64,000 nucleotides of DNA from Leadbetterella sp. (GTDB lineage: Bacteria > Bacteroidota > Bacteroidia > Cytophagales > Spirosomataceae). Of the stretch, positions 8,231-22,100 are shown one piece after another. The position numbers and the translations under genes are program-made. Within the stretch, counting starts at the first letter, position 1; each line of letters starts with the position of its first letter. The stretch covers positions 62,001 to 126,000 of the forward strand of contig JAHBUH010000011.1 in the NCBI GenBank assembly GCA_019638185.1, given 5' to 3'. A model generated the notes under the pieces. That model searched no databases and was not told the origin of the DNA. It saw only the letters and a program-made list of their open reading frames with translations.

Positions 8231-9655
8231 TTACCGGAGATACCTCGGGAATCGCGTAAACCGGAGCCCTACCGCAAAATCCAGTCGGTTCAGCAGGATA
8301 GGCAGCTTATGCCAGCCGTTTGTCTCCGGGCTGAGGCTTTTCAGTTGCCCGTAATTATAGCCGCACTCAAAACTCACGATCACATCGCGGCCCGTTTCAT
8401 TGTTCCCGATCAGGAAATCGATGCCCAGTGTGGCTGCTCCGCCCCAGGCACCGCCCTTATACTCATAATTCATCTGGTTAACAATGCCCTTATCGCTGTA
8501 GAAATAATATCCCGGGCTCACCGTGGCCACTATAAACGTTTTATAATCCATGCCGATCCGGCCCAGCAGGGTGGGGCCCACAAACTTATGGTTCACCTTA
8601 CTTTCCAGTGACCGGATCATAAACTCCTCTCCGGAGCCCATAACGATGGCAGAGTTCAGGTTCGCGTTTTTATTCTGCGACTGGAAGCTCTGGTACGTTA
8701 TCCCTATCCCGAAATGGTCATTCAGGAAAACCGCGGCGTCTACGCCATACACCCAGCCTCTTCTCAGTTTCTCGTTATACAGGCCAAACGGAGATTTATC
8801 GGTGTTATCGTCAATAATATTTCCCAGGCCTCCTTTGAAACCGATGCGGTATTTGAGGTAATTGGTAAATTCAGTTTTGCCTTTCAGCGGCGATACGTAC
8901 TCGCTGCCCTCCTCACCGGCCAGGCGGGTGCTGTCACCCGTGCCCGCCACCACTTCAGCGCCGGAAGGTTTTTTAGCAGTATTCCCGGCCCCCGTTTTGC
9001 TGTCCGCCACTTTATCCGGAGCCGGTCCTTCCGGTTTTAAAGTCACCGGCAGGTGCGCCTCGCCCGAAGAATTCTTTGCTACCTTTCCCGGGTTACCTGC
9101 CTCTTGCGCCGGTTTATCTTTCTTTTCATTACCCGGAGTACTGTTAACTGCTTTCTCCGCGGTAGCAGCCCCTTGTACAGGTTTGTCTTTCTTTTCACTG
9201 CCCGTAGAATTGCTAACCACCTTCTCCACAGTAGCCGTCCCCTGTACCCGTTTATCTTTCTTTTCATTACCCGCAGAACCGCTAACCACCTTTTCCCGGT
9301 CACCGGTCATCGCAGCTTCCTTATCTCCCGGATTCTTACTCGCCCCCACTGCCTCTTTCTTACCCTCGGGCGGAGAATTTTTCACCACACTCGCATTGAC
9401 GGGCGGCATCTTTTTAGCCGCAGGGAGATCCCCCGGGAAATAATTATACTTAAAAGAAGAAATAAGCGTCTTGAAGATCTCGGTTTTCACCGGCTTCCCT
9501 TTCTCATTAACATACACGTAGCTGAAGCGCATAGACGATTCATCCACGATACGGCAACGGATCTGCTCCCCCGCCTGTGTGATGATCAGGTCCCTCTGGG
9601 CGGTGGCTTTAAAAGCAATAAGTAGTAATAATATGGTAAATATCCTTGAAAACAT
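8231..9655 (-). CDS. Outer-membrane beta-barrel protein with internal repeats
   Basis: A 474-residue predicted outer-membrane protein. Begins at ATG 9655 (a GTG two codons earlier is less likely) with a signal peptide FSRIFTILLLLIAFKATA cut before QRD. A small N-terminal globular part (to about residue 80) is followed by a charged, low-complexity linker of some 130 residues that contains three 23-residue repeats, then a C-terminal region of alternating hydrophobic strands ending RFTRFPRYLR, typical of small Bacteroidota barrels. No enzyme motif is visible. The stretch after the stop codon repeats the last strand (see findings). Convergent with rimO. Confidence 0.75.
   Translation of the reverse strand: MFSRIFTILLLLIAFKATAQRDLIITQAGEQIRCRIVDESSMRFSYVYVNEKGKPVKTEIFKTLISSFKYNYFPGDLPAAKKMPPVNASVVKNSPPEGKKEAVGASKNPGDKEAAMTGDREKVVSGSAGNEKKDKRVQGTATVEKVVSNSTGSEKKDKPVQGAATAEKAVNSTPGNEKKDKPAQEAGNPGKVAKNSSGEAHLPVTLKPEGPAPDKVADSKTGAGNTAKKPSGAEVVAGTGDSTRLAGEEGSEYVSPLKGKTEFTNYLKYRIGFKGGLGNIIDDNTDKSPFGLYNEKLRRGWVYGVDAAVFLNDHFGIGITYQSFQSQNKNANLNSAIVMGSGEEFMIRSLESKVNHKFVGPTLLGRIGMDYKTFIVATVSPGYYFYSDKGIVNQMNYEYKGGAWGGAATLGIDFLIGNNETGRDVIVSFECGYNYGQLKSLSPETNGWHKLPILLNRLDFAVGLRFTRFPRYLR
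9089..9295 (-). repeat. Three 69-nt tandem repeats coding 23 residues each
   Basis: Each unit encodes a variant of EKVVSxSxGxEKKDKPVQG plus four residues (protein residues 123-191 of the frame opened at 9661). The copies differ at several positions, so this is not a recent expansion. Confidence 0.8.
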
Positions 9656-9963
9656 ATACACTTTCTCACATTTAGCGCACCATTGTAAACTAAAACGCAG
9701 AACCGGTTGATTTCAGTGCTCAGAAGTAAACGCCAAAAATCATACCAGTTCTCTTATTTTGAAAAAAAGTGATTTTACGGCATAAAATTTGTGCTAAAAT
9801 TTGCAAAAGTCTTAAATAGTTTAGATTTTTGAAGCAAAACTGCGGCAGCACCTGCTTTCCTTATAGAAAAACCACGTTCTGCCCTGTAAACAATTATTTA
9901 TCACCTTAACACTTATCGGTACAATATGGTATAAAACTCTACGTTAACTAATGTGAAAATATA
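9656..9963. other. AT-rich gap of about 300 nt without a gene
   Basis: Separates the divergent barrel gene and sigma factor gene. No open frame of note. TTTG at 9800-9803 followed 18 nt later by TAGATTTT is a weak promoter-like pair for the sigma gene, with a leader of about 130 nt. No tRNA-like structure was seen. Confidence 0.4.
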
Positions 9964-11317: not shown

Positions 11318-11917
11318 TTGAAATTCTCAAAATATAGTACCCATAAAGATGAGGAGCTGGTGGCTCTTTATATCACCAGCCAGAGAAATGAGTATTTTGA
11401 AGAAATTTACGAAAGATACGTCAATAAAGTTTACCGTAAATGTTACTCCTTTGTTTACAACCAGGAAAAAGCGGAAGATCTCACCCATGACATTTTCCTG
11501 AAGCTTATCGTAAAAATCGGTAGCTTTAAGGAAACGTCAAAATTTTCCACCTGGCTGTACTCCATTACCTATAATTACTGCATGGATCAGATAAGGACAG
11601 GTAAAAAGCGAACTGAAGTGGCATTGCATGACGATGTGGAGGTCAGCGACGAGGATGATCGCGGGGTTCTTGATTTTCAGAGCAATGAGTTATCGAAAAG
11701 CATGAGGCAGATGGCCGCAGATGAAAGGGCCATCCTGCAAATGAAATACCAGGAAGACTTCAGCATAAAAGAAATTGCAGATACGCTGAACATCACCGAA
11801 AGCGCCGTTAAAATGCGGCTCATGCGGAGCAAAGAAAAACTGAAGAAGATTTACCTGGAAAATATAGCGGTCTTTGTACTGATCATAATGAAGATACTAA
11901 GTCTCTTTGAAAAATGA
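11318..11917 (+). CDS. ECF sigma factor with hydrophobic C-terminal tail, TTG start
   Basis: A 199-residue group 4 sigma factor. Region 2: KAEDLTHDIFLKLIVKIGSF and FSTWLYSITYNYCMDQIR; region 4: MAADERAILQMKYQEDFSI, KEIADTLNITESAVKMRLMRSKEKLK. The only plausible start is TTG at 11318, since an in-frame stop lies at 11303-11305 and no ATG occurs before region 2. After region 4 the protein ends in a hydrophobic stretch (IAVFVLIIMKILSLF), unusual for a soluble sigma factor and possibly a membrane-contact tail. Its stop overlaps the next gene (ATGA), and it heads a run ending in mscL. Confidence 0.88.
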   Translation: MKFSKYSTHKDEELVALYITSQRNEYFEEIYERYVNKVYRKCYSFVYNQEKAEDLTHDIFLKLIVKIGSFKETSKFSTWLYSITYNYCMDQIRTGKKRTEVALHDDVEVSDEDDRGVLDFQSNELSKSMRQMAADERAILQMKYQEDFSIKEIADTLNITESAVKMRLMRSKEKLKKIYLENIAVFVLIIMKILSLFEK

Positions 11918-12102
11918 TAGATGATGAAGAGGAATTAGAAGTTTCGCCCAATCTTAAAAACCTGCTACTGTCGGAAGTAGACCTCATCCGCGATGCCCTC
12001 TCTATCCTGGGGGTATTCACCGAAGGAAGTGTTCAAACCGGCCTGAAGTTCCTGGAAGACCTTAACAACAACAACAATACCCCCTCTGAAAAAGATGAAT
12101 GA
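11914..12102 (+). CDS. Small acidic protein between sigma factor and channel
   Basis: A 62-residue protein with no family I recognise. It is acidic at both ends (MIDDEEELE..., ...PSEKDE) around an amphipathic stretch (LKNLLLSEVDLIRDALSILGVF), with a run of five asparagines near the C-terminus. It is tied to both neighbours: ATGA overlap with the sigma gene upstream and an 8-nt overlap with the channel gene downstream. Position suggests a regulator of the sigma factor or a channel partner, but nothing in the sequence proves either. Confidence 0.7.
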   Translation: MIDDEEELEVSPNLKNLLLSEVDLIRDALSILGVFTEGSVQTGLKFLEDLNNNNNTPSEKDE

Positions 12103-12931
12103 GTTCCCAGACATTAAACAGATCCTGATCAATACCTTCTCCAAACTGATTGAGCAGTCCAGCACCTTCATCTCTAACCTGATCAGTGCCGTCCTTATCC
12201 TGGGCATTGGCTGGGGAGTGGCCCGGATCGCCGCTTTTCTCTTCCGGTCTTTCTTCTCCAAAGTAGGCGTGGATAAGCTGGGAGAAAAAATCCAGAACAT
12301 GGAGATGCTCAAAAAATACGAACTGGATTTCAGCCTCAGCCGGGTTCTTTCCCAGATCGTATTTATCCTCATCATGCTCTTCCTGTCCGTTTCCGCCGCA
12401 GATACCCTGGGCGTACCGGCCATTTCCAATATGTTCATGATGCTGGTAGACTTCATCCCTAAGCTGGGAGTGGCCATTATGATGACCCTGCTGGGGCTTT
12501 TCGTATCAGACCTGGCCCGGAAATTTGTGGAAACCCTCTGCAAATCCTTCCATATTGCTTCCGGGAAGCTCATCAGCATGGGCGTTTTCTTCTTCCTGAG
12601 CTTTATTTCCGTGATCCTGGCCCTGGGTCAGGCCGGTATTAATACCAAGCTGCTCGAAAGCAGCTTCAATATCCTGGTAGCGGGCCTGGTACTGGCTTTT
12701 TCCATTGGCTACGGTATTGCTTCCAAAGAAATCATGCTCAATATCCTCAGCTCCATCTACTCCCGGAAAAAATTCAGGGAGGGAGACCTGGTAGAGATTC
12801 TCGGCGTGAAAGGCACCATCATCCGGATGGATAATACCACCCTGGTGCTGAGTGCCGATGGCAAAGAAATATCCTTCCCCCTGCGGGTTTTACAAACTGA
12901 AAAAATTACGCTGTTTCACCAAAACCAATAG
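12095..12931 (+). CDS. MscS/CmpX-like small-conductance channel protein
   Basis: A 278-residue inner-membrane protein with about five predicted spans. The membrane part contains TM-helix repeats of the CmpX type (AVLILGIGWGVARIAAFLFR; an AIMMTLLGLFVSDLARK stretch). The last ~60 residues resemble the MscS beta domain: FREGDLVEILGVKGTIIRMD, TTLVLSADGKEISFP and a final strand. Such proteins are linked to osmotic release or cell-envelope homeostasis; gating is not shown here. It overlaps the small acidic gene and is 4 nt from the next gene. Confidence 0.85.
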   Translation: MNEFPDIKQILINTFSKLIEQSSTFISNLISAVLILGIGWGVARIAAFLFRSFFSKVGVDKLGEKIQNMEMLKKYELDFSLSRVLSQIVFILIMLFLSVSAADTLGVPAISNMFMMLVDFIPKLGVAIMMTLLGLFVSDLARKFVETLCKSFHIASGKLISMGVFFFLSFISVILALGQAGINTKLLESSFNILVAGLVLAFSIGYGIASKEIMLNILSSIYSRKKFREGDLVEILGVKGTIIRMDNTTLVLSADGKEISFPLRVLQTEKITLFHQNQ

Positions 12932-12935
12932 ATTC

Positions 12936-13952
12936 ATGAAAAAAATAACATGTATTGCACTCCTTTCCGCCCTTTCGCTGACCGGTGCATTCGCACAAAG
13001 CGCCGGCGATGCGCAAAAAAAGGTGGGTGACGCCATGTCTACCAAAGACCTGAAAGGTGAATTTAAAGAAGGATGGAATAAAGCATCCAGCTTTGGTGCC
13101 ACGCTGAACGTAACCGGTTTCAGCGACAGCTGGAAACAGGTCAATACCGGTGTGGTGGGAAATACAAACCTCCACTTCATCCTTAAGCACCAGAATGCCC
13201 TGGTAAAAGGTAAAAACATCTGGATCAATGATTTTGAAGGACAGCTGGGTTTCCAGAGCTCCGGTAAAAACGCTACCACAAACAAGCGGGAATTTAACCG
13301 GAACATCGATAAGCTATTCCTGAACTCCCAATACGGCCGAAAAGTATCGGATAAGCTCTCCGTCTTTGCCGAAGGTAACTTCATCTCCCAGTTCCTGGCC
13401 GTGAAAGACAGCGAAAGTGACACCAAACGGAACATCGCCTCCGCTTTCATGACCCCCGGCTACCTGACCGTCTCTACGGGTATTGAGTACCGTCCGGTAG
13501 ATTACTTCACCGTAAAACTGGCGCCCCTGGCTAATAAATGGACTTTTGTGAGTCACAAAAACGTGGTCTACGATACCGAAACCGGCTATGCCTACGGGGT
13601 AAACGTGGGTGAAGGGAAGAAATCACTCTCGGAATTCGGTTCCCAGCTGACCCTGGGCTTTAACAAAGAAGTGATGAAAAACGTGAACCTGGGCTTCCGG
13701 TATAACTTCTTCAAAGCGTGGAAAGATACCGAAGGAAATAAAAACAAGCCCCTGGATCACCGCTTAGACCTCCTGGCCACGGCTAAGATAAACAAATACC
13801 TGAATGTAAACTTCACCTACATCGGTATCCTGGACAAAGACGTATTTGATCATAAAGCTTTTAATAACTCTACTCCGAAGCCTATTGACCCTGTGCGGTC
13901 CAGCTGGCAAAGCGCCAGTGGTTTCGGAATAGGCTTCCTGGCTTCTTTTTAA
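12936..13952 (+). CDS. DUF3078-type outer-membrane beta-barrel protein
   Basis: A 338-residue protein starting at ATG 12936 with signal peptide MKKITCIALLSALSLTGAFA (before QSAG). After a short charged segment it has the DUF3078 pattern: FSDSWKQVNTG, a long series of amphipathic strands, EYRPVDYFTVKLAPLANKWTFV, and a C-terminal strand ending in F. Predicted barrel in the outer membrane with unknown substrate. The longer frame from 12852 overlaps the channel gene and has no signal sequence. Lying between an inner-membrane channel and mscL, it may belong to the same envelope response. Confidence 0.85.
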   Translation: MKKITCIALLSALSLTGAFAQSAGDAQKKVGDAMSTKDLKGEFKEGWNKASSFGATLNVTGFSDSWKQVNTGVVGNTNLHFILKHQNALVKGKNIWINDFEGQLGFQSSGKNATTNKREFNRNIDKLFLNSQYGRKVSDKLSVFAEGNFISQFLAVKDSESDTKRNIASAFMTPGYLTVSTGIEYRPVDYFTVKLAPLANKWTFVSHKNVVYDTETGYAYGVNVGEGKKSLSEFGSQLTLGFNKEVMKNVNLGFRYNFFKAWKDTEGNKNKPLDHRLDLLATAKINKYLNVNFTYIGILDKDVFDHKAFNNSTPKPIDPVRSSWQSASGFGIGFLASF

Positions 13953-13970
13953 CCTTAATTTTTGAAAACT

Positions 13971-14369
13971 ATGTTAAAGGAATTTAAAGCATTTATTATG
14001 ACCGGCAACGTCATCGACCTTGCCATTGCTGTGATCCTGGGTGCCGCCACCGGCGGAGTAGTGAACGGTTTTGTGGAAGACATCGCCATGCCCATCGTGG
14101 GCTATTTTTCGGGGGGTGCCGACTTCTCTAATTTTAAGTATGTACTGACTCCGGCTTCGGTAGGCGCTGATGGCGTGGCCATTCCGGAAAATGCCATCCG
14201 TTACGGTGCATGGATAAACACCATCATTAACCTGCTGGTGGTGGGCTTCGTGCTCTTCCTCATTGTAAGAGCTTATAACCGCGTGAGAAAACCTGCCGCT
14301 CCGGAAGCTCCTGCCGGCCCTACGGAAGTAGAGCTGCTGACCGAGATCCGGGATGCACTGAAAAAGTAG
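13971..14369 (+). CDS. mscL: Large-conductance mechanosensitive channel MscL
   Basis: Inner-membrane safety valve that opens at high membrane tension after osmotic downshock. The 132-residue protein begins MLKEFKAFIMTGNVIDLAIAV, the conserved first helix with the pore-forming G/A-rich segment (AVILGAATGGVVN), has a periplasmic loop, a second span (INTIINLLVVGFVLFLIV) and the C-terminal helix ending ELLTEIRDALKK. ATG 13971 is chosen over a TTG at 13962 because MLKEF is the canonical start. Last gene of the sigma-channel run. Confidence 0.96.
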   Translation: MLKEFKAFIMTGNVIDLAIAVILGAATGGVVNGFVEDIAMPIVGYFSGGADFSNFKYVLTPASVGADGVAIPENAIRYGAWINTIINLLVVGFVLFLIVRAYNRVRKPAAPEAPAGPTEVELLTEIRDALKK

Positions 14370-14398
14370 GTATTGGCGAACAGCTGACAGCTAAAAAC

Positions 14399-14426
14399 GG
14401 GGAAAGTCGGACGATTTTCCCCTTTT
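14399..14426 (+). terminator. Intrinsic terminator after mscL
   Basis: Stem GGGGAAA (14399-14405) with TTTCCCC (14416-14422), then a T-rich tail. It closes the operon that begins with the sigma factor. Confidence 0.8.
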
Positions 14427-14484
14427 CTTATTTTGGAAGCAAATATTAATTCCCGGTTTGTTTTTTATCTGCCTCCAAAAATTA

Positions 14485-14492
14485 TAAATTTG
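14485..14492 (+). promoter_or_regulatory. Candidate -7 element of the ftsW cluster (TAAATTTG)
   Basis: Exact TAnnTTTG match 49 nt before the ftsW ATG. A TTTG lies 24 nt upstream, somewhat far for a -33 element. This would be the start of the division-gene transcript here, independent of the mscL run. Confidence 0.4.
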
Positions 14493-14541
14493 TTCAGCAA
14501 TCATACGGGCTGATTGCAGCTTTCCTAAACGATCCGTATCT

Positions 14542-15714
14542 ATGACTGAAAAACTAAAAAACCATCTGCAGGGTGACAAGCAGATCTGGTGGATTTTAGG
14601 CCTGCTCTCGCTGATCAGCGTGGTCACGGTCTACAGTAGCATCAGCAGCCTTGCTTACCGTCAGGCCGGCGGCAATACGGAAGCCGTCATCCTGAGACAC
14701 GTACTCTTCCTGGTGATCGGCATAGTGGTCACTTACTTCGTGCATAAAATAGATATTTCGCGTTATGCGCACATCGCCAAGATACTGCTCTACGTTTCCC
14801 CGTTTCTCCTGCTCTACACCCTCATGTTCGGGGTGAGCATCGGTCATGCGCGGCGGTGGATCACCGTCATGGGGCTTTCGTTCCAGACCGCTGACTTTGT
14901 AAAGCTGGTACTGATCGTGAACCTGGCCGCCATGCTGGCCAGTAAGATCCATATTGAATACAAACGCAAAGACCTGCTGGAGATCATTGCCTGGTGCGGG
15001 CTCATTGTTTTCCTCATCTCGCTTTCCAGCTTCTCCTCCGCCATCATCCTGGGCTTTACCTGCTTTACCATCATGTGGATAGGCAAGGTACCCCGGCGCT
15101 ACCTGCGCGCGCTCACCTTCGTTATTTTAGGGGTGGTTTCCTTTGCCCTGCTCACCGGCTACCTGATCAAGGTCACCACCGGTAAAGAAATAGGCCGGGT
15201 CTCTACCGTGATAGACCGGACCGAAGCCTTTATTAACCGGGACCTGGACCGGGACGGCTACGTAGGGGGCTACCTGGGCGGAAAAAGCAGCCAGAAAAAC
15301 TTTGCCCACGTGGCCATCGCCAAAGGCGGCCTGGTGGGCGTGGGCCCCGGAAACAGCAGCCAGAAAAATGTGCTGCCCGAAGCCTATTCCGACTACATCT
15401 ATTCCATCGTCATTGAAGAATACGGCCTTATAGGCGGTATGGTGGTGCTGGCGCTGTACCTGTGGCTACTGGCGCGCGGCATCTCGAACATCGACTACAC
15501 CGAGCGGGCGTTCGGCGGCCTCCTCTGCGTGGGCCTGACCCTGCTCCTGGTTTTCCAGGCATTTGCGCACATGGCCATTAACGTAGGCCTGGGCCCCGTG
15601 ACCGGGCAGACCCTCCCGCTGATCAGCCGGGGCGGTACTTCCGCCCTGTTCTCCTTCATTGCCATCGGTATCGTATTAAGTGTCAGTAAATATTCCAAAC
15701 CCCAGAGCGCATGA
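14542..15714 (+). CDS. ftsW: Septal peptidoglycan polymerase FtsW
   Basis: SEDS-family glycosyltransferase that polymerises lipid II at the division site with its partner transpeptidase. The 390-residue protein has about ten membrane spans and the signature near the C-terminus, GPVTGQTLPLISRGGTS. Conserved RRW in FGVSIGHARRWITVMG and the Glu-rich IVIEEYGLIGG motif are also visible. The position directly before murG favours FtsW over RodA. It overlaps murG by ATGA. An unusual GGYLGGKSSQKNF loop precedes the conserved GLVGVGPGNSSQKN segment. Confidence 0.95.
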   Translation: MTEKLKNHLQGDKQIWWILGLLSLISVVTVYSSISSLAYRQAGGNTEAVILRHVLFLVIGIVVTYFVHKIDISRYAHIAKILLYVSPFLLLYTLMFGVSIGHARRWITVMGLSFQTADFVKLVLIVNLAAMLASKIHIEYKRKDLLEIIAWCGLIVFLISLSSFSSAIILGFTCFTIMWIGKVPRRYLRALTFVILGVVSFALLTGYLIKVTTGKEIGRVSTVIDRTEAFINRDLDRDGYVGGYLGGKSSQKNFAHVAIAKGGLVGVGPGNSSQKNVLPEAYSDYIYSIVIEEYGLIGGMVVLALYLWLLARGISNIDYTERAFGGLLCVGLTLLLVFQAFAHMAINVGLGPVTGQTLPLISRGGTSALFSFIAIGIVLSVSKYSKPQSA

Positions 15715-16799
15715 AAGTCATCATATCCGGAGGCGGAACCGGCGGACACATCTACCCGGCAGTGGCCATTGCCAATGAGCTGAAACGGCAGCGCCCGGAC
15801 GCCGGTATCCTCTTTGTAGGGGCGCTCGGGAAAATGGAAATGGAAAAAGTGCCCCGCGAAGGCTACACCATTGTGGGGCTGCCCGTGGCCGGCTTTAACC
15901 GCTCTAACCTCCTGGCTAACCTCACTTTCCCCTTTAAGCTCATCGGCAGTATGCTGAAAGGCTACCGGGTGGTGAAATCCTTTCAGCCGGATATCGCCGT
16001 GGGTGTGGGGGGCTTTGCCAGCGGCCCTACCCTGCGCATCGCCAGCTTCCTGGGCGTGAAAACGCTCATCCAGGAGCAGAACTCCTACGCCGGCGTGACA
16101 AACAAGATCCTGGCCCGCAAGGCCTCCAAAGTCTGCGTGGCCTACCCGGATATGGACCAGTTCTTTGACCGGGACAAGATCGTGTTTACCGGTAACCCGG
16201 TGCGGAATGACATGCTGCTTTCCGGGGTCAGCCGCGAAGACGCCAAAGCCCACTTCGGGCTGGACGCCACCCGGCCCGCCCTGCTGATCATTGGCGGCAG
16301 CCTGGGCGCACTCAGCATTAACCGGGCCATAGCCACGGGTTTAGACACCCTTCTTTCCTCCGGCCTCCAGCTCATCTGGCAAACCGGCAAAAGCTTCATC
16401 GGGGAAGCCCGAGAGCTTGTCAAAGACAAAAAAGGGGTATTTGTATCTGATTTTATCTATGAGATGGACAAAGCCTACGCCGCCGCTGACCTCGTGGTCT
16501 CCCGCGCGGGCGCCCTGGCCGTGTCTGAGCTTTCGCTGGTAGGAAAAGCGGCCATCCTGGTTCCTTTTCCCTATGCCGCGGAAGATCACCAAACCAAAAA
16601 CGCCGAAAGCCTCAGCCGGCAGGAAGCCGCCATCCTTATTCCTGACGTTCAGGTGAATGAAGCGCTCATCCCGGCGGTGACCGCCCTGGCCGCAGATCCG
16701 GGCCGGATCGCAGCCATGGAAAACGCCATACGGGCCTTTGCCCGGCCTAAAGCGGCAGAAGACATTGTCAAAGAAATCCTTAAACTGACGGAGAAATGA
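15711..16799 (+). CDS. murG: MurG, lipid II synthase
   Basis: Adds N-acetylglucosamine from UDP-GlcNAc to lipid I, giving lipid II, on the inner face of the membrane. Motifs: GGGTGGHIYPAVAIANEL at the N-terminus (first G-loop), GVGGFASGPTLRIAS, IQEQNSYAGVTNKI, GGSLGALSINRAI (second G-loop) and SRAGALAVSEL. The 362-residue length is normal. It shares ATGA overlaps with ftsW before it and with the ATE-like gene after it. Confidence 0.97.
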   Translation: MKVIISGGGTGGHIYPAVAIANELKRQRPDAGILFVGALGKMEMEKVPREGYTIVGLPVAGFNRSNLLANLTFPFKLIGSMLKGYRVVKSFQPDIAVGVGGFASGPTLRIASFLGVKTLIQEQNSYAGVTNKILARKASKVCVAYPDMDQFFDRDKIVFTGNPVRNDMLLSGVSREDAKAHFGLDATRPALLIIGGSLGALSINRAIATGLDTLLSSGLQLIWQTGKSFIGEARELVKDKKGVFVSDFIYEMDKAYAAADLVVSRAGALAVSELSLVGKAAILVPFPYAAEDHQTKNAESLSRQEAAILIPDVQVNEALIPAVTALAADPGRIAAMENAIRAFARPKAAEDIVKEILKLTEK

Positions 16800-17572
16800 A
16801 AATATTTTTATCGGAAAACACGGTAGACTATACCACTTATACCTTTAACTACGCCCTCTACGCCCTGAAAGAGTCACAGGATGAGCTGAGCGAGCTGTAT
16901 AACCGGGGCTTCCTGCCCTACACCGGGCACCTGGGCCTGAACCGGGAAGTCTACTATTTCGGGCGGAGCCTGAGGGTAAACCTGGAGAAATTTGACGATA
17001 CCTCCGAAAACCGCCGCGTAAACCGCCTGGTGGAGCCGCTGGAGATCACCATGAACCTGATCCCCAAGCAGGAGTTTGACACCCGTAACCCCGAGTTTAT
17101 GGCCTTCTGTGAAGGGTACATAAACGAGCGGATCGGTGAAGATAACATGAGCATGGAGCGCTGGAACTACATCCTGGCCCAGGAAACCGGCACTCACCTG
17201 TTCGAGTTCCGCAAGGCCGACAGGGTCATGGGTTACGTGCTGGCCGCGGTCAATGAAGACATGGTACACTACTGGTTTGCGTTCTTTGATACCGAATACA
17301 TGCGGACCCACTCGCTCGGGAAATGGATGATGTGGAAAGTGATCCGCTGGGCCAAAGAAAACGGCCGCCGCCATGCCTACCTGGGTACTGCCTACAAGCC
17401 GGCCGCCCTCTACAAGATCCGGGACCACAAAGGCCTGGAATTCTGGGACGGAACCGGCTGGAATGAGGACGTGAAGATTCTGAAAGAATGGTGCCAGACC
17501 GACCTGGAGCCGAAAACGGCCGACCGGTTCAAAACCATGGATAAACCAAACGAATACCTGGATGCGTTATGA
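16796..17572 (+). CDS. ATE/Bpt-like aminoacyl-tRNA-protein transferase homologue
   Basis: A 258-residue protein that I read as a divergent member of the arginyl/leucyl-tRNA-protein transferase family (ATE/Bpt; GNAT-like fold). The segment SELYNRGFLPYTG...VYYFGRSLRVNLEKF...SENRRVNRL aligns by eye with the Bpt N-terminal pattern (DRGWRRSG, ..VRIPVDRF, SQRR..R), and SLGKWMMWKVIRWAKENGRRHAYLGT...YKPAALYKIRDHKGLEFWDG matches the C-terminal acyltransferase part. The cysteines that normally cluster in the N-terminal region are absent; only two cysteines occur in the whole protein. It overlaps murG and ftsQ by 4 nt each and sits where murC usually lies. Whether it modifies proteins is unknown. Confidence 0.65.
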   Translation: MKIFLSENTVDYTTYTFNYALYALKESQDELSELYNRGFLPYTGHLGLNREVYYFGRSLRVNLEKFDDTSENRRVNRLVEPLEITMNLIPKQEFDTRNPEFMAFCEGYINERIGEDNMSMERWNYILAQETGTHLFEFRKADRVMGYVLAAVNEDMVHYWFAFFDTEYMRTHSLGKWMMWKVIRWAKENGRRHAYLGTAYKPAALYKIRDHKGLEFWDGTGWNEDVKILKEWCQTDLEPKTADRFKTMDKPNEYLDAL

Positions 17573-18333
17573 AAAAGCTGAACGTCAAAACGGTGTTTAA
17601 TACCGTGGGAGGTTTGGGACTGGCCGCGCTGGCCCTTTTCCTGATCTTCTCCTCGGCGAAAAGCGATGCGGTGCGGCGCTGCGAAAAGGTGATTGTCCGG
17701 ATAGAAGACGATGACCGCCAGCTGCTGGTGAAAAAAGACGACGTGGAGAAATGGGTCACCCGGCAGGGGAGCGATCCGCTGGTAGGCAAGACCCTAGAGT
17801 CTATAGACCTCAAAAAACTGGAAAAACGGGTGGAAAACAGCGGGATCATCCGGGATTGCCAGGCATACCTGGACCTGAAAGGGAACCTGATTCTGGATGT
17901 GGAAGTCTATAAGCCGGTAGCGCGTATCCTGGCTAACAGCCGTTTCCCGGACCGCTACATGGATGAAAAGGGACACTTTTTCCCGGTTTCCAAAAACTTC
18001 ACCCCCACAGTGCTGCTTCTGAGCGGCGAGTTCTTCCGGGATAAGAAGGGACTGGAATCCCCGAAAAACAAGGACCTCCTAGATATGATCAATACCATCA
18101 CCGCCGATGAATTCTGGAAAGCCCAGATCACACGGATGGACATAGACCGCCACAAAGAGATCCTGATGGAGCCTCTGCTGGGCGAAAATATCATTGAATT
18201 CGGCAAGCCGGAGAAGGTTCAGGCCCGCCTGGAAAAGCTCATGGTCTTCTATAAAAAGATACTTCCACAGGACCCATGGAGCAACTTTAAATACGTCAGC
18301 GTAAAATATGACGGGCAGATTGTGTGTAAGTAA
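17569..18333 (+). CDS. ftsQ: Cell division protein FtsQ (DivIB)
   Basis: Bitopic divisome protein. A single N-terminal membrane span (about residues 14-28, GGLGLAALALFLIFSSA) is followed by a POTRA-like region (KVIVRIEDDDRQLLVKKDDVEKWV) and the FtsQ beta domain. The length, 254 residues, is normal. Identity rests mainly on this architecture and its location directly before ftsA and ftsZ. The start ATG overlaps the ATE-like gene (ATGA). Confidence 0.88.
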   Translation: MKKLNVKTVFNTVGGLGLAALALFLIFSSAKSDAVRRCEKVIVRIEDDDRQLLVKKDDVEKWVTRQGSDPLVGKTLESIDLKKLEKRVENSGIIRDCQAYLDLKGNLILDVEVYKPVARILANSRFPDRYMDEKGHFFPVSKNFTPTVLLLSGEFFRDKKGLESPKNKDLLDMINTITADEFWKAQITRMDIDRHKEILMEPLLGENIIEFGKPEKVQARLEKLMVFYKKILPQDPWSNFKYVSVKYDGQIVCK

Positions 18334-18382
18334 TTAATTTTAAGTAAGTTTACAATAAATATTCCATCTAAACAACATCACT

Positions 18383-19786
18383 ATGGAGGAAGGCAAGGGT
18401 TTCATAGGGCTTGAAATAGGAAGTTCGAAAATTGCGGCTGTGGTGGGGCTCCAGCAGCAAAGGAAGATCAAAGTAATCGGCTTCAGTGAGCGTCAGATCT
18501 CACCCACTGACGAGGTACTGAGATTCGGAAATGTGGAGAATGCCCAGATCACCAGCGAGTTCATCGGCGAAGTGCTGGATGAGCTGGCCGGAGAATTTGA
18601 AAGATCGGACTATGAATTTCAGCTGAATACGGTGAACATAAACATCGCTAACCTGTCTGTGAGCAGCCACTCCAAAAGCACAAAAGTGGTCACTTCCGGC
18701 AGCATGAACCGGATCCAGCAGGAAGACGTGAACCGGCTTACCGATGACGCTAACCGCTCCTTCCGGGTGCCGGCAGGTCATACGGTCATTCACAGCCTGC
18801 CCAAAGACTTCTACGTGGGCGATGAAAAAGCGTCCGGTCCGGTGGTAGGAAAAATCGGAAACATGCTGAGCGGTGATTTTAACTTCATCACTACGAAATC
18901 CGACAGCCTCCATTACCTCCTGGAATGCGTAAACCAGGTTCCGGCTAAAGGAACCACCTCCGGCTTCCTCAATGTGGAAAATGTGATCCTGAATGTCATA
19001 GCCGACAGCTGTGCCCTGCTGAACAATTCTTCGGAAGAGCCGGAAACCAAGCGCGAAGGCGTGGCTATTGTCAATATCGGCGCCGAAATGACCCAGGTGT
19101 GCGTATACCACGGAAACAGCCTGCGCTACCAGGCCGTGATCCCCATTGCCGGAAACAGCATTAACTCTGACCTGGAAAAGGCCTTCGGCATTACCTTCCA
19201 GGAAGCGGAGCTCCTGAAGAAAGTGTGCGGCAGCATAGCCCTTACCGAAGAATCGCCCGTCATCGTGATCGAGCGCAAATTCGGGATGCCGGCAAAAGAA
19301 GTTTACCTCAAAAACGCCATGATCGTGGCTGAAATGAGACTGCGGGAGATCGCCGCGCTGGTCAGCGCCGAGCTCACCCGCTCAGGTTACAAAGCCCACC
19401 TCAGGAACGGTATCATCCTGACCGGCGGCACGGCACTCTACGGAAACATTTCCGGCATCTTCTCGGAAGTCTGTAAAGGCGTGATCTTACGCCCTACCCT
19501 CTTCAATTCCGCCATTGATTTCACCGGTTTTGAACACTTACGGAGCCCCCGGTACTCTACCCTGCTGGGCCTGGTCACGGCACCGGCGTTTCCCTTTGAC
19601 CGGCGGGTAGATAATAACCGCATCCTTACGCCGCGGCCTATTGAGAACATGTATCCCCAACCCGAAAAAGACACCCCAGCTCCCGAAAAAGAAAAGAAAG
19701 GGGGCTGGCTGGGCGGCCTGGGAAGCATATTCGGGAAACCTACCAATGATCTGAATGATGTATATAACGTGCAAAATGTAAAATGA
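18383..19786 (+). CDS. ftsA: Cell division protein FtsA
   Basis: Actin-like membrane anchor of FtsZ. The 467-residue protein opens with the first phosphate motif (GLEIGSSKIAAVVG), carries an SHS2-like inserted domain, a second phosphate motif (AIVNIGAEMTQVCVY) and an adenosine motif (GIILTGGTALYG). Near the C-terminus GGWLGGLGSIFGKP could be the amphipathic membrane-targeting helix, although another ~12 residues follow. It is 49 nt from ftsQ and overlaps ftsZ by ATGA. Confidence 0.95.
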   Translation: MEEGKGFIGLEIGSSKIAAVVGLQQQRKIKVIGFSERQISPTDEVLRFGNVENAQITSEFIGEVLDELAGEFERSDYEFQLNTVNINIANLSVSSHSKSTKVVTSGSMNRIQQEDVNRLTDDANRSFRVPAGHTVIHSLPKDFYVGDEKASGPVVGKIGNMLSGDFNFITTKSDSLHYLLECVNQVPAKGTTSGFLNVENVILNVIADSCALLNNSSEEPETKREGVAIVNIGAEMTQVCVYHGNSLRYQAVIPIAGNSINSDLEKAFGITFQEAELLKKVCGSIALTEESPVIVIERKFGMPAKEVYLKNAMIVAEMRLREIAALVSAELTRSGYKAHLRNGIILTGGTALYGNISGIFSEVCKGVILRPTLFNSAIDFTGFEHLRSPRYSTLLGLVTAPAFPFDRRVDNNRILTPRPIENMYPQPEKDTPAPEKEKKGGWLGGLGSIFGKPTNDLNDVYNVQNVK

Positions 19787-21105
19787 TATTCGAACCTAAC
19801 TACGAGATAGAGCTGAAGTCAGGCCTGGATAAAATTATCAAGGTCATCGGCGTGGGCGGTGCGGGAGGCAACGCCATGCTAACCATGTATAACCAGGGCA
19901 TGCGCGATGTGGACTTCGTGGCCTGCAATACCGATTTGCAGGTACTGAACCAGTTCCCGGAGGATATAGTGAAAATCCAGCTAGGGCCGAAGATTTCGGG
20001 AGGTCTGGGCGCAGGAACCGACCCGGAAGTGGGCCGTTTAGCTGCCCTGGAAAGTGAAGAAGCCATCCGGGAGATCATGAAAGGCTCCACTAAAATGGTT
20101 TTTATTACCGCAGGGATGGGTGGAGGTACCGGTACGGGTGCAGCCCCCGAAATAGCCCGTATAGCTCGTGAGTTAGAGCTTCTGACCATCGGTGTGGTCA
20201 CTGACCCCTTCCGGCACGAAGGCACGGATAAACTGACACAAGCCCAGATAGGCATTGAAAAGCTGAAACAATTCTGTGATACGGTACTGGTCATCAAAAA
20301 TGACCGGCTGGCCAGTATGTATGCCGACATGAAAATAGGATCGGCCTACAAGAAGGCCGATGACGTGCTGGCGGGCGGGGTAAGGAGCATTGCCGAACTG
20401 ATCACCCTGCCGGGCATTATTAACCTGGACTTTGCTGATGTGAAGACCGTATTAGGCGAGGCCGGCCACGCCGTTATGGGCACCGCGGAAGCCTCCGGTC
20501 CGGAAAGAGCCTTCCAGGCCATTGAGGAAGCCCTGAGTTCCCCCCTGCTGGAAAATAATAATATCCGCGGGGCTAAGCGTATCCTGGTCTCCATAGCCTA
20601 TTCGGACGAGCTGGAAGAATATGAGATCAAAATGTCTGACCAGACCAAGATCATGGATTTCGTGGAAACCCAGATCAAATCCCAGGCCCAGATCTTCAAA
20701 AACGGTTACGCCATAGACCGCAGCCTGAAAGACAAGATCCGGGTGACCATCGTAGCAGCGAAATTTGATACCAATACCCCGGCACCGCCGGTGACTGTTC
20801 CGCCAAAAGCGCAGGTGGGCGGCGGCCTGGATACCCTCATCCCGGGTACCCCCAAGCCCCACAAAGCCCCCAAACCGGTGGCTCCGAACCAGACCTCGCT
20901 CTTCGCCGCTGACAGTAAGCTGATACACCTGTACGAGGAGTTTGTGAAAGAAGTACCGGATTACGACATCATCCGGGAGAACCCCTCCTACCAGCGCCTG
21001 CAGGCCACTTTACTGGACGATAACGAGGTGGAAGCCCGGACACCCGATAAGGTGAAGCTGAAAGACCTGTACGATAACCTGGCGAGTCAGAACCTGATTA
21101 ACTAA
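19783..21105 (+). CDS. ftsZ: Cell division GTPase FtsZ
   Basis: Tubulin homologue that forms the division ring. Motifs: GVGGAGGNAM near residues 23-32, the tubulin signature GGGTGTG at residues 113-119, and the T7-loop NLDFADV. After the core comes a Pro/Lys-rich linker (residues ~325-370). The 440-residue protein ends in DLYDNLASQNLIN, and I do not see the usual conserved C-terminal peptide (a D/E-I-P-x-F-L-R type sequence). The stop overlaps the stop of convergent gpsA by 4 nt. FtsA is translated just before it. Confidence 0.97.
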   Translation: MIFEPNYEIELKSGLDKIIKVIGVGGAGGNAMLTMYNQGMRDVDFVACNTDLQVLNQFPEDIVKIQLGPKISGGLGAGTDPEVGRLAALESEEAIREIMKGSTKMVFITAGMGGGTGTGAAPEIARIARELELLTIGVVTDPFRHEGTDKLTQAQIGIEKLKQFCDTVLVIKNDRLASMYADMKIGSAYKKADDVLAGGVRSIAELITLPGIINLDFADVKTVLGEAGHAVMGTAEASGPERAFQAIEEALSSPLLENNNIRGAKRILVSIAYSDELEEYEIKMSDQTKIMDFVETQIKSQAQIFKNGYAIDRSLKDKIRVTIVAAKFDTNTPAPPVTVPPKAQVGGGLDTLIPGTPKPHKAPKPVAPNQTSLFAADSKLIHLYEEFVKEVPDYDIIRENPSYQRLQATLLDDNEVEARTPDKVKLKDLYDNLASQNLIN

Positions 21106-22100
21106 ACAAACTTCCCCTTAAGCGCCTCAAAAGCCTTAAGGGGTTTTTCATTTTTATACAGCACGTCATAGGCAAACTTCACAATAGGCAGGTCTACCCT
21201 GTGGGCCTGGTTAATGCGTTCAATACACTCCGTGGCATAATAGCCTTCCGCTATCATCTTTAACTCTATCTGAGCCGCTTTTACGGAATAGCCCCGGCCT
21301 ATCATATTGCCGAAGGTACGGTTACGGCTGAACTGGCTGTAGCACGTCACCAGGAGGTCACCCAGGTAGGCGGATACGTTTACGTTTCTCTGCAGGGGGC
21401 TCACCGTATCCAGGAAGCGCTGGATCTCGATGATGGCATTAGACACCATCACCGCCTGGAAGTTATCACCCGCTCCTACGCCATGGGCTATCCCGCATGA
21501 CATGGCCACAATATTCTTCATCACCGCGGCGTACTCCACCCCGTGGAGATCCGTCAGAAAAGACGTCTTCACAAAACGGCAGGCCAGCAGGCGGGCAAAA
21601 TGCTCCGCCGTTTCCGTGCCCGAAGACGCGATAGTAATGTAAGAGTACTTCTCCAGCGCGATCTCCTCGGCATGGCAGGGCCCGGCAATGGCCCCGATAT
21701 TTTCCGGTAAAACCCCGAAATTCTCCGAAAACCAGTCGGTCACCAGTTGGCTGGTGCTGGAAACGATCCCCTTCACGCCGGAGATCACCTTCTTCCCGCT
21801 AAACCAGGCCGGGTCAGCGTCTTTCAGCGCCTCTTCAATAAAAGCCGAAGGCACCGCCAGGATCACCCACTCCACGCCCTTTAATGCGTCTTTCAGGTTA
21901 GTATAAGGTTTTACCTTGGAAGGGTGAAGCTCCACACTGCTGAGGTAATGCAGATTATGGTGGTATTTCCGGATATGCGCCACTGCATCCGTATCCCGCA
22001 TCCACCACTTCACTTTGACGTTATTTTCCGTCAATATTTTAATAAGGGCGGTGGCCCAGCTTCCGCCCCCGATCACCGCTACCTGCTTTGAAAATATCAT
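21102..22100 (-). CDS. gpsA: Glycerol-3-phosphate dehydrogenase [NAD(P)+]
   Basis: Reduces dihydroxyacetone phosphate to sn-glycerol-3-phosphate for phospholipid synthesis; the product feeds PlsY (2.6 kb). The 332-residue protein starts with a Rossmann motif (VAVIGGGSWATALIKIL), has WVILAVPSAF and KGIVSS, the catalytic lysine segment GVEYAAVMKNIVAM, and RTFGNMIGRGYSV before the C-terminal helices. It has its own promoter (22119-22149) and overlaps the end of ftsZ by 4 nt on the opposite strand. Confidence 0.95.
   Translation of the reverse strand: MIFSKQVAVIGGGSWATALIKILTENNVKVKWWMRDTDAVAHIRKYHHNLHYLSSVELHPSKVKPYTNLKDALKGVEWVILAVPSAFIEEALKDADPAWFSGKKVISGVKGIVSSTSQLVTDWFSENFGVLPENIGAIAGPCHAEEIALEKYSYITIASSGTETAEHFARLLACRFVKTSFLTDLHGVEYAAVMKNIVAMSCGIAHGVGAGDNFQAVMVSNAIIEIQRFLDTVSPLQRNVNVSAYLGDLLVTCYSQFSRNRTFGNMIGRGYSVKAAQIELKMIAEGYYATECIERINQAHRVDLPIVKFAYDVLYKNEKPLKAFEALKGKFV

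Follow-up and report, generated by a model that had tools for sequence, protein, structure and literature searches.

In textbooks the ligases MurC and MurD count as indispensable, and both are antibiotic targets. The nearest known bypass, MurD2/MurL of Xanthomonas, takes in glutamate as L-Glu and epimerises it afterwards, so that MurI can be lost (according to excerpts of PMC8788868 and PMC5808125). Aminoacyl-tRNA-dependent transfer is described for ATE1, whose acceptors are the N-terminal Asp or Glu of proteins (PMC10115844, in the sections available), and for the GNAT-fold transferases PacB, VlmA, DhpH-C and Orf11, which use aminoacyl-tRNA on small amines (PMC12945691, likewise in the sections available). 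Here we describe a gene, termed X, in a 64,000-nucleotide stretch of Leadbetterella sp. DNA (the window; contig JAHBUH010000011.1, positions 62,001 to 126,000) that encodes a cysteine-poor ATE-like transferase of 258 amino acids (16796..17572, forward strand) and stands in the place of murC in a genome in which neither MurC nor MurD is found. As judged from sequence and fold comparisons, these observations are best explained, and in our view probably so, if X, with its ATE/Bpt fold, is an aminoacyl-tRNA-dependent Ala-Glu synthase that begins the stem peptide of peptidoglycan.

The distribution of MurC and MurD was compared between genomes with X (X+) and without it (X−) using the models TIGR01082 (MurC, curated cut-off 335.1 bits) and TIGR01087 (MurD, cut-off 211.95 bits), at whose sensitivity the absences reported here hold. 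Within the window's family, counted at E ≤ 1e-70, MurC was present in 0 of 29 X+ genomes versus 186 of 193 X− genomes; among these 186, 181 exceeded the curated cut-off and five gave E-values of 1e-86 to 1e-98, and the seven X− genomes with no match are fragmented assemblies (72–91% complete, 220–560 contigs). For 16 of the 29 X+ genomes, absence was counted as not being in the match list (36 genomes had no match overall). Outside the family, MurC exceeded the cut-off in none of 11 X+ and all of 10 X− genomes, giving 0/40 versus 196/203 overall; one X+ genome of this set (G519) yields a MurC-model match (3.9e-71, 239.7 of 335.1 bits) that we read as an Mpl-type ligase. MurD followed the same division: none of 15 X+ genomes exceeded the cut-off (best score 84.8 bits of 211.95), whereas all of 11 X− genomes did, and a weaker MurD-type match (109–145 bits) was seen in all ten X− and none of the 11 X+ genomes of the outside-family set. 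Both enzymes are likewise missing from the single-contig X+ genomes G437, G342, G398, G425 and G510. Furthermore, two genomes, G521 of family f57 and G162 of family f8 (same class), have the mraZ-to-ftsZ cluster on one contig with no murD or murC in it, so the loss there is not an assembly gap; X is located elsewhere in these two genomes (cluster genes named by eye, apart from mraY and ftsW of G521, which were assigned by model).

Gene order places X in the position vacated by murC. G476, a relative without X, has the gene order mscS-like, DUF3078-like, mscL, murD, ftsW, murG, murC, ftsQ, ftsA, ftsZ (murC and murD assigned by model, the others named by eye and from their matches to the window), and the window reads mscL-ftsW-murG-X-ftsQ-ftsA-ftsZ, with the neighbours of X in the G476 order and each matched by tblastn at E < 1e-27. 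Compared with G476, the murC slot is taken by X and the murD place by a gap of 172 nucleotides (14370..14541) that has no murD match; the G476 murD found nothing better than E 5.7 by tblastn in positions 11901–21200, and the G476 murC nothing better than E 1.3 in the window. That both MurC and MurD are lost, and that X occupies the place of murC, is a solid observation. Throughout the family, murG lies directly upstream of X in 27 of 29 genomes (gap −4 to 83 nucleotides; in the other two X is near contig ends), and an open reading frame (ORF) of 248–255 amino acids, which we take for ftsQ, begins within 198 nucleotides downstream in all 29. In two genomes of family f53, X again lies between murG and an ftsQ-like gene, separated from one of them by a small ORF.

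The surrounding genes of the window are all on the forward strand. They comprise an mscL-like gene (13962..14369; tblastn E 1e-28, named by eye), the upstream anchor common to the window and G476; an ftsW-type gene (14542..15714) whose best model is TIGR02614 (238.4 bits, below the cut-off of 337.5) and which shares 44% identity with its ftsW-type counterpart in G476; murG (15711..16799; TIGR01133, 290.4 bits, exceeding the cut-off of 250.25); an ftsQ-like gene (17569..18333), which has no NCBIfam match and matches the gene after murC in G476 at E 2.7e-55; and ftsA-like (18383..19786; E 3e-52) and ftsZ-like (19783..21105; E 6e-91) genes, named by eye and matching the genes at the ftsA and ftsZ positions of G476. 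X is joined to both of its neighbours by 4-nucleotide ATGA overlaps (murG/X at 16796-16799, X/ftsQ-like at 17569-17572), as a preliminary description of the locus had noted; the link to cell division as such that it drew from them is not supported. The division cluster of family f53 also carries extra small ORFs between its genes (L171 of G560, 9386-9784 and 12912-13316; L106, 2719-3105), two of which resemble, by eye, 23S-intervening-sequence four-helix proteins.

The family placement of X by sequence models leaves, by itself, its function unsettled. A Pfam search returned three matches in all, to Acetyltransf_6 (49.5 bits), ATE_C (PF04377; 36.3 bits, cut-off 25) and Acetyltransf_1 (24.4 bits), and none at E ≤ 10 to ATE_N (PF04376) or FemAB; NCBIfam arginyltransferase models align to residues 57-223 with at most 41.4 bits, far below their cut-offs of 170–358 bits, which leaves X outside these equivalog families. 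Against PDB sequences, phmmer gave no match and hmmsearch with a profile of X gave four (two weak GNATs and two chance-like ones) that were not useful, so the link to ATE1 came from the fold search. The 50 Foldseek matches listed comprise only ATE1, MprF and related aminoacyl-phosphatidylglycerol synthases, FemX, Sba18 and Aat, all of them aminoacyl-tRNA-dependent types, and ATE1 ranks first by VIA-align, which assigns X to the ATE1 fold. The protein has only two cysteines (C105 and C233) and hence no N-terminal cysteine cluster, and it carries SENRR at the place of the SQRR-type motif (S70, E71, N72 and R74 invariant and R73 variable in 23 aligned sequences). Comparison with 21 relatives (41–80% identity, mean column identity 69%) excludes a chance ORF. 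The earlier view of X as a divergent ATE/Bpt-type protein devoid of the cysteine cluster is therefore borne out by the ATE_C score, the ATE1 fold and the two cysteines.

These placements bear on two other accounts of X. The Acetyltransf_6 and Acetyltransf_1 scores would suit a coenzyme A-dependent GNAT acyltransferase, which we regard as the least probable account of all; the listed fold matches are those named above. An ordinary Bpt-like N-degron transferase, or another protein modifier, that lies beside murG by accident while MurC and MurD are replaced by other means would agree with a fold nearest ATE1 and an ATE_C match over the cut-off. It is unlikely, however, in view of the split of MurC between X+ and X− genomes and of the position of X between murG and ftsQ in both families f1 and f53; moreover, two lost indispensable enzymes need a replacement, for which X is the only candidate seen, other genes not having been screened. 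A protein-modifying role, one of two offered in the preliminary description, is accordingly not supported, and its optional role in making peptidoglycan precursors is now the better supported one, although the proposed acceptor is free glutamate and not a finished precursor.

The argument for a dipeptide synthase starts from the retained end of the pathway. In the window's genome both MurE (622.8 bits, cut-off 373) and MurF (368.1 bits, cut-off 288.6) are retained, so UDP-MurNAc-Ala-Glu is still needed, and because MurE requires it where MurC and MurD are missing, another supplier must exist. An ATE-type transfer needs a free amine; UDP-MurNAc and UDP-MurNAc-Ala have no suitable one and glutamate has, which points to free glutamate as the acceptor, a small step from the N-terminal Asp and Glu on which ATE1 acts. 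Ala-tRNA is the likely donor because Ala is the usual first stem residue. We infer a scheme in which X would take L-Ala off Ala-tRNA and attach it to glutamate, free and at its alpha-amine, giving Ala-Glu and hence the bond normally made by MurD. If the acceptor is L-Glu, the product would be converted to L-Ala-D-Glu by an enolase-superfamily L-Ala-D/L-Glu epimerase. The retained MurC/Mpl-type ligase would then join the amine of the dipeptide to UDP-MurNAc, the bond of MurC, after which MurE, MurF, MraY and MurG would proceed as usual, X and the ligase together making MurC and MurD dispensable.

Of the 27 X+ genomes inspected, 26 show a ligase of this type (two of them as pieces only), among them five of the six small (1.1–1.6 Mb) X+ genomes of family f57; in the window's genome it falls below both curated cut-offs (murC, 206.6 of 335.1 bits; mpl, TIGR01081, 158.6 of 388.7 bits). 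One ligase of this MurC/Mpl type is encoded at L136:9608-10981. The ligase alone might replace MurC and MurD, or recycled or imported stem peptides might suffice, with X unrelated; its near-constant presence would fit this, as would the slight activity on L-Ala of the Mpl of Psychrobacter (PMC3060825, in the sections available). We nevertheless consider this very improbable, since X− genomes carry the same ligase clade in addition to MurC and MurD, net growth cannot rest on recycling, and the presence of X in the murC slot is left without explanation. For a ligase that would use the dipeptide made by X, the same sections of PMC3060825 report that Psychrobacter Mpl joins L-Ala-D-Glu slowly (k 1.4 versus 260 per min for the tripeptide). 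An altered diaminopimelate (DAP) motif was also considered as a sign of dipeptide use and dropped; the ligases read ELHT-SSL (ELHSSSS in family f57) in X+ and X− genomes alike, at what would be the place of Glu402-Thr407 in Psychrobacter Mpl, a protein that is not in the alignment.

The stereochemistry of the glutamate allows two routes. MurI (TIGR00067) does not exceed the cut-off in 18 of 40 X+ genomes, including the window's own, Leadbetterella byssophila (G437), G162 and all six of family f57; it was not found in the window's genome or G162 and has no match in the six f57 genomes; outside the window's family it is present in 1 of 11 X+ versus 5 of 10 X− genomes. In G162 an epimerase-like gene starts 5 nucleotides downstream of X, the only such neighbour among the stretches examined around X. 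Its best PDB match is 3iji (deposited as a muconate cycloisomerase and, we take it, a Bacteroides dipeptide epimerase), followed by dipeptide and L-Ala-D/L-Glu epimerases. NCBIfam epimerase cut-offs are missed both by the G162 gene (117.0 of 343 bits) and by the corresponding gene of the window's genome (141.3 of 500 and 131.8 of 343 bits). Alternatively, X might put L-Ala directly on free D-Glu supplied by MurI or a D-amino-acid transaminase, the epimerase serving recycling only. MurI is kept in the other 22 X+ genomes and epimerase-like genes also occur in X− genomes, as this would predict, but the MurI scores of the 18 (no transaminase search was made) and the epimerase-like gene adjoining X in G162 speak for L-Glu, and we hold the direct use of D-Glu to be possible but the less likely course. 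Two markers tried here were given up. MurI loss as decisive support was dropped when a first sample (absent in 5/15 X+ and 0/11 X− genomes) gave way to a larger one with a weak contrast, and the epimerase as a marker of X+ genomes was dropped because it has a match in 26 of 26 genomes.

X itself is sparsely distributed. Of 222 genomes in the window's family, 29 have it at full length and 11 others give weak matches only (20–29 bits) through other proteins; a profile search in the order found it in 21 of 390 genomes, 10 of those outside the window's family, and a sample of 296 genomes across the phylum yielded two, the window's own and G162, with three more weak matches. Carriers include Leadbetterella byssophila, whose X is 80% identical to that of the window (both in genus group g1), Arcticibacterium luteifluviistationis (G342), Emticicia genomes, and six f57 genomes of 1.1–1.6 Mb (G521, G563, G575, G586, G598 and G652).

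ATE_C matches as such are more widespread, with 116 of the family's 222 genomes scoring above the cut-off, a count that includes X. The window's genome has a second ATE_C protein (G000:C10:30310-30564, L079; open frame of 369 amino acids), and ATE-like proteins occur in many relatives (loci L049-L078) with open frames of about 220–260 and 350–400 amino acids; the longest frame among the ATE_C matches, 734 amino acids, holds a 26.2-bit match at G434:C18:103416-103715. Those further ATE_C proteins that were read have FRM and WLR motifs and, by eye, no cysteine cluster; they come from 12 loci translated on the forward strand, of which four on the opposite strand (L049, L054, L071 and L074) yielded no usable protein. 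Six of these other cysteine-poor proteins, combined into a profile, align to X by hhalign over 169 columns with a probability of 97.2. As orthologues of X such proteins were set aside; they are found in X− genomes having MurC.

Several observations weigh against X as an Ala-Glu synthase. Its top Pfam match is Acetyltransf_6 rather than ATE_C, and it is the sole replacement candidate seen for MurC and MurD in an analysis that did not screen other genes. When the presence of X is mapped onto an Mpl-type ligase tree with 20 X+ and 16 X− rows, three to four changes of state suffice, of which strongly supported branches force one, so the large counts rest on few independent events. No X+-specific motif change appears in the part of the ligase alignment viewed, which excluded the middle. 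No Mpl-type ligase was seen in G598 (79% complete, family f57), where X is also broken into two parts and the stretch that holds it has ambiguous bases. MurI differs little between the groups (22/40 X+ versus 27/36 X−; Fisher p 0.09, a value that, like any Fisher p here, is uncorrected for kinship and has few events underlying it). Nine of the 36 X− genomes have MurC and show no MurI above the cut-off (G076, G111, G194, G273, G037, G418, G446, G467 and G469). Finally, epimerase-like genes were found in all 26 genomes tested, X− genomes included (in G420 as fragments only).

What is plain is that a group with culturable type strains (Leadbetterella byssophila, Arcticibacterium luteifluviistationis and Emticicia) keeps later steps of the pathway without MurC and MurD. 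If X is their replacement, charged tRNA would supply part of the cell-wall peptide, and cell-wall synthesis would be coupled, at its first amino acid, to tRNA charging. A recycling-type ligase would have turned biosynthetic, the ATE fold would have gained a small-molecule role, and indispensable primary metabolism would include a tRNA-dependent peptide synthase whose acceptor is a free amino acid; each proposed step is testable with purified enzymes. Somewhat more cautiously than for the function of X alone, we think it rather likely that this is a third way to begin peptidoglycan, in which the first stem bond forms away from the nucleotide, between free glutamate and an amino acid delivered by aminoacyl-tRNA, the dipeptide is then coupled to UDP-MurNAc, and MurC, MurD and, in some species, MurI become dispensable. 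Searches of the open-licence literature listed no paper that, by title and the start of the abstract, deals with MurC/MurD loss in these bacteria or with a tRNA-dependent Ala-Glu synthase, subscription papers and preprints being where one could still stand; in the main text of a paper on pseudomurein (PMC11915815), the terms 'GNAT' and 'tRNA' are both without a match.

Set beside the systems already described, X differs from ATE1/Bpt (PF04376/PF04377) in having no cysteine cluster and no ATE_N, in scoring far below the NCBIfam cut-offs and in belonging to a cell-wall cluster, as well as in its proposed acceptor, free glutamate, and proposed donor, Ala-tRNA. FemABX and MurM transferases branch a finished precursor, whereas X, which has no FemAB match in Pfam, would start the stem itself. 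The likeness to MurD2/MurL lies in glutamate that enters as L-Glu and is epimerised later, but there, in the excerpts cited, a MurD-like ATP ligase acts on UDP-MurNAc-L-Ala, whereas in the present case MurD was not found and formation of the dipeptide would come first. With the recycling enzyme Mpl (PMC3060825, as excerpted) the scheme shares a MurC/Mpl-type ligase that couples a ready-made peptide to UDP-MurNAc, although the ligase of the window's genome, which misses both curated cut-offs, would be biosynthetic and dipeptide-using. PacB, VlmA, DhpH-C, Orf11 and Sba18, ultimately, are FemX-like and belong to secondary metabolism, whereas X would serve an indispensable primary pathway.
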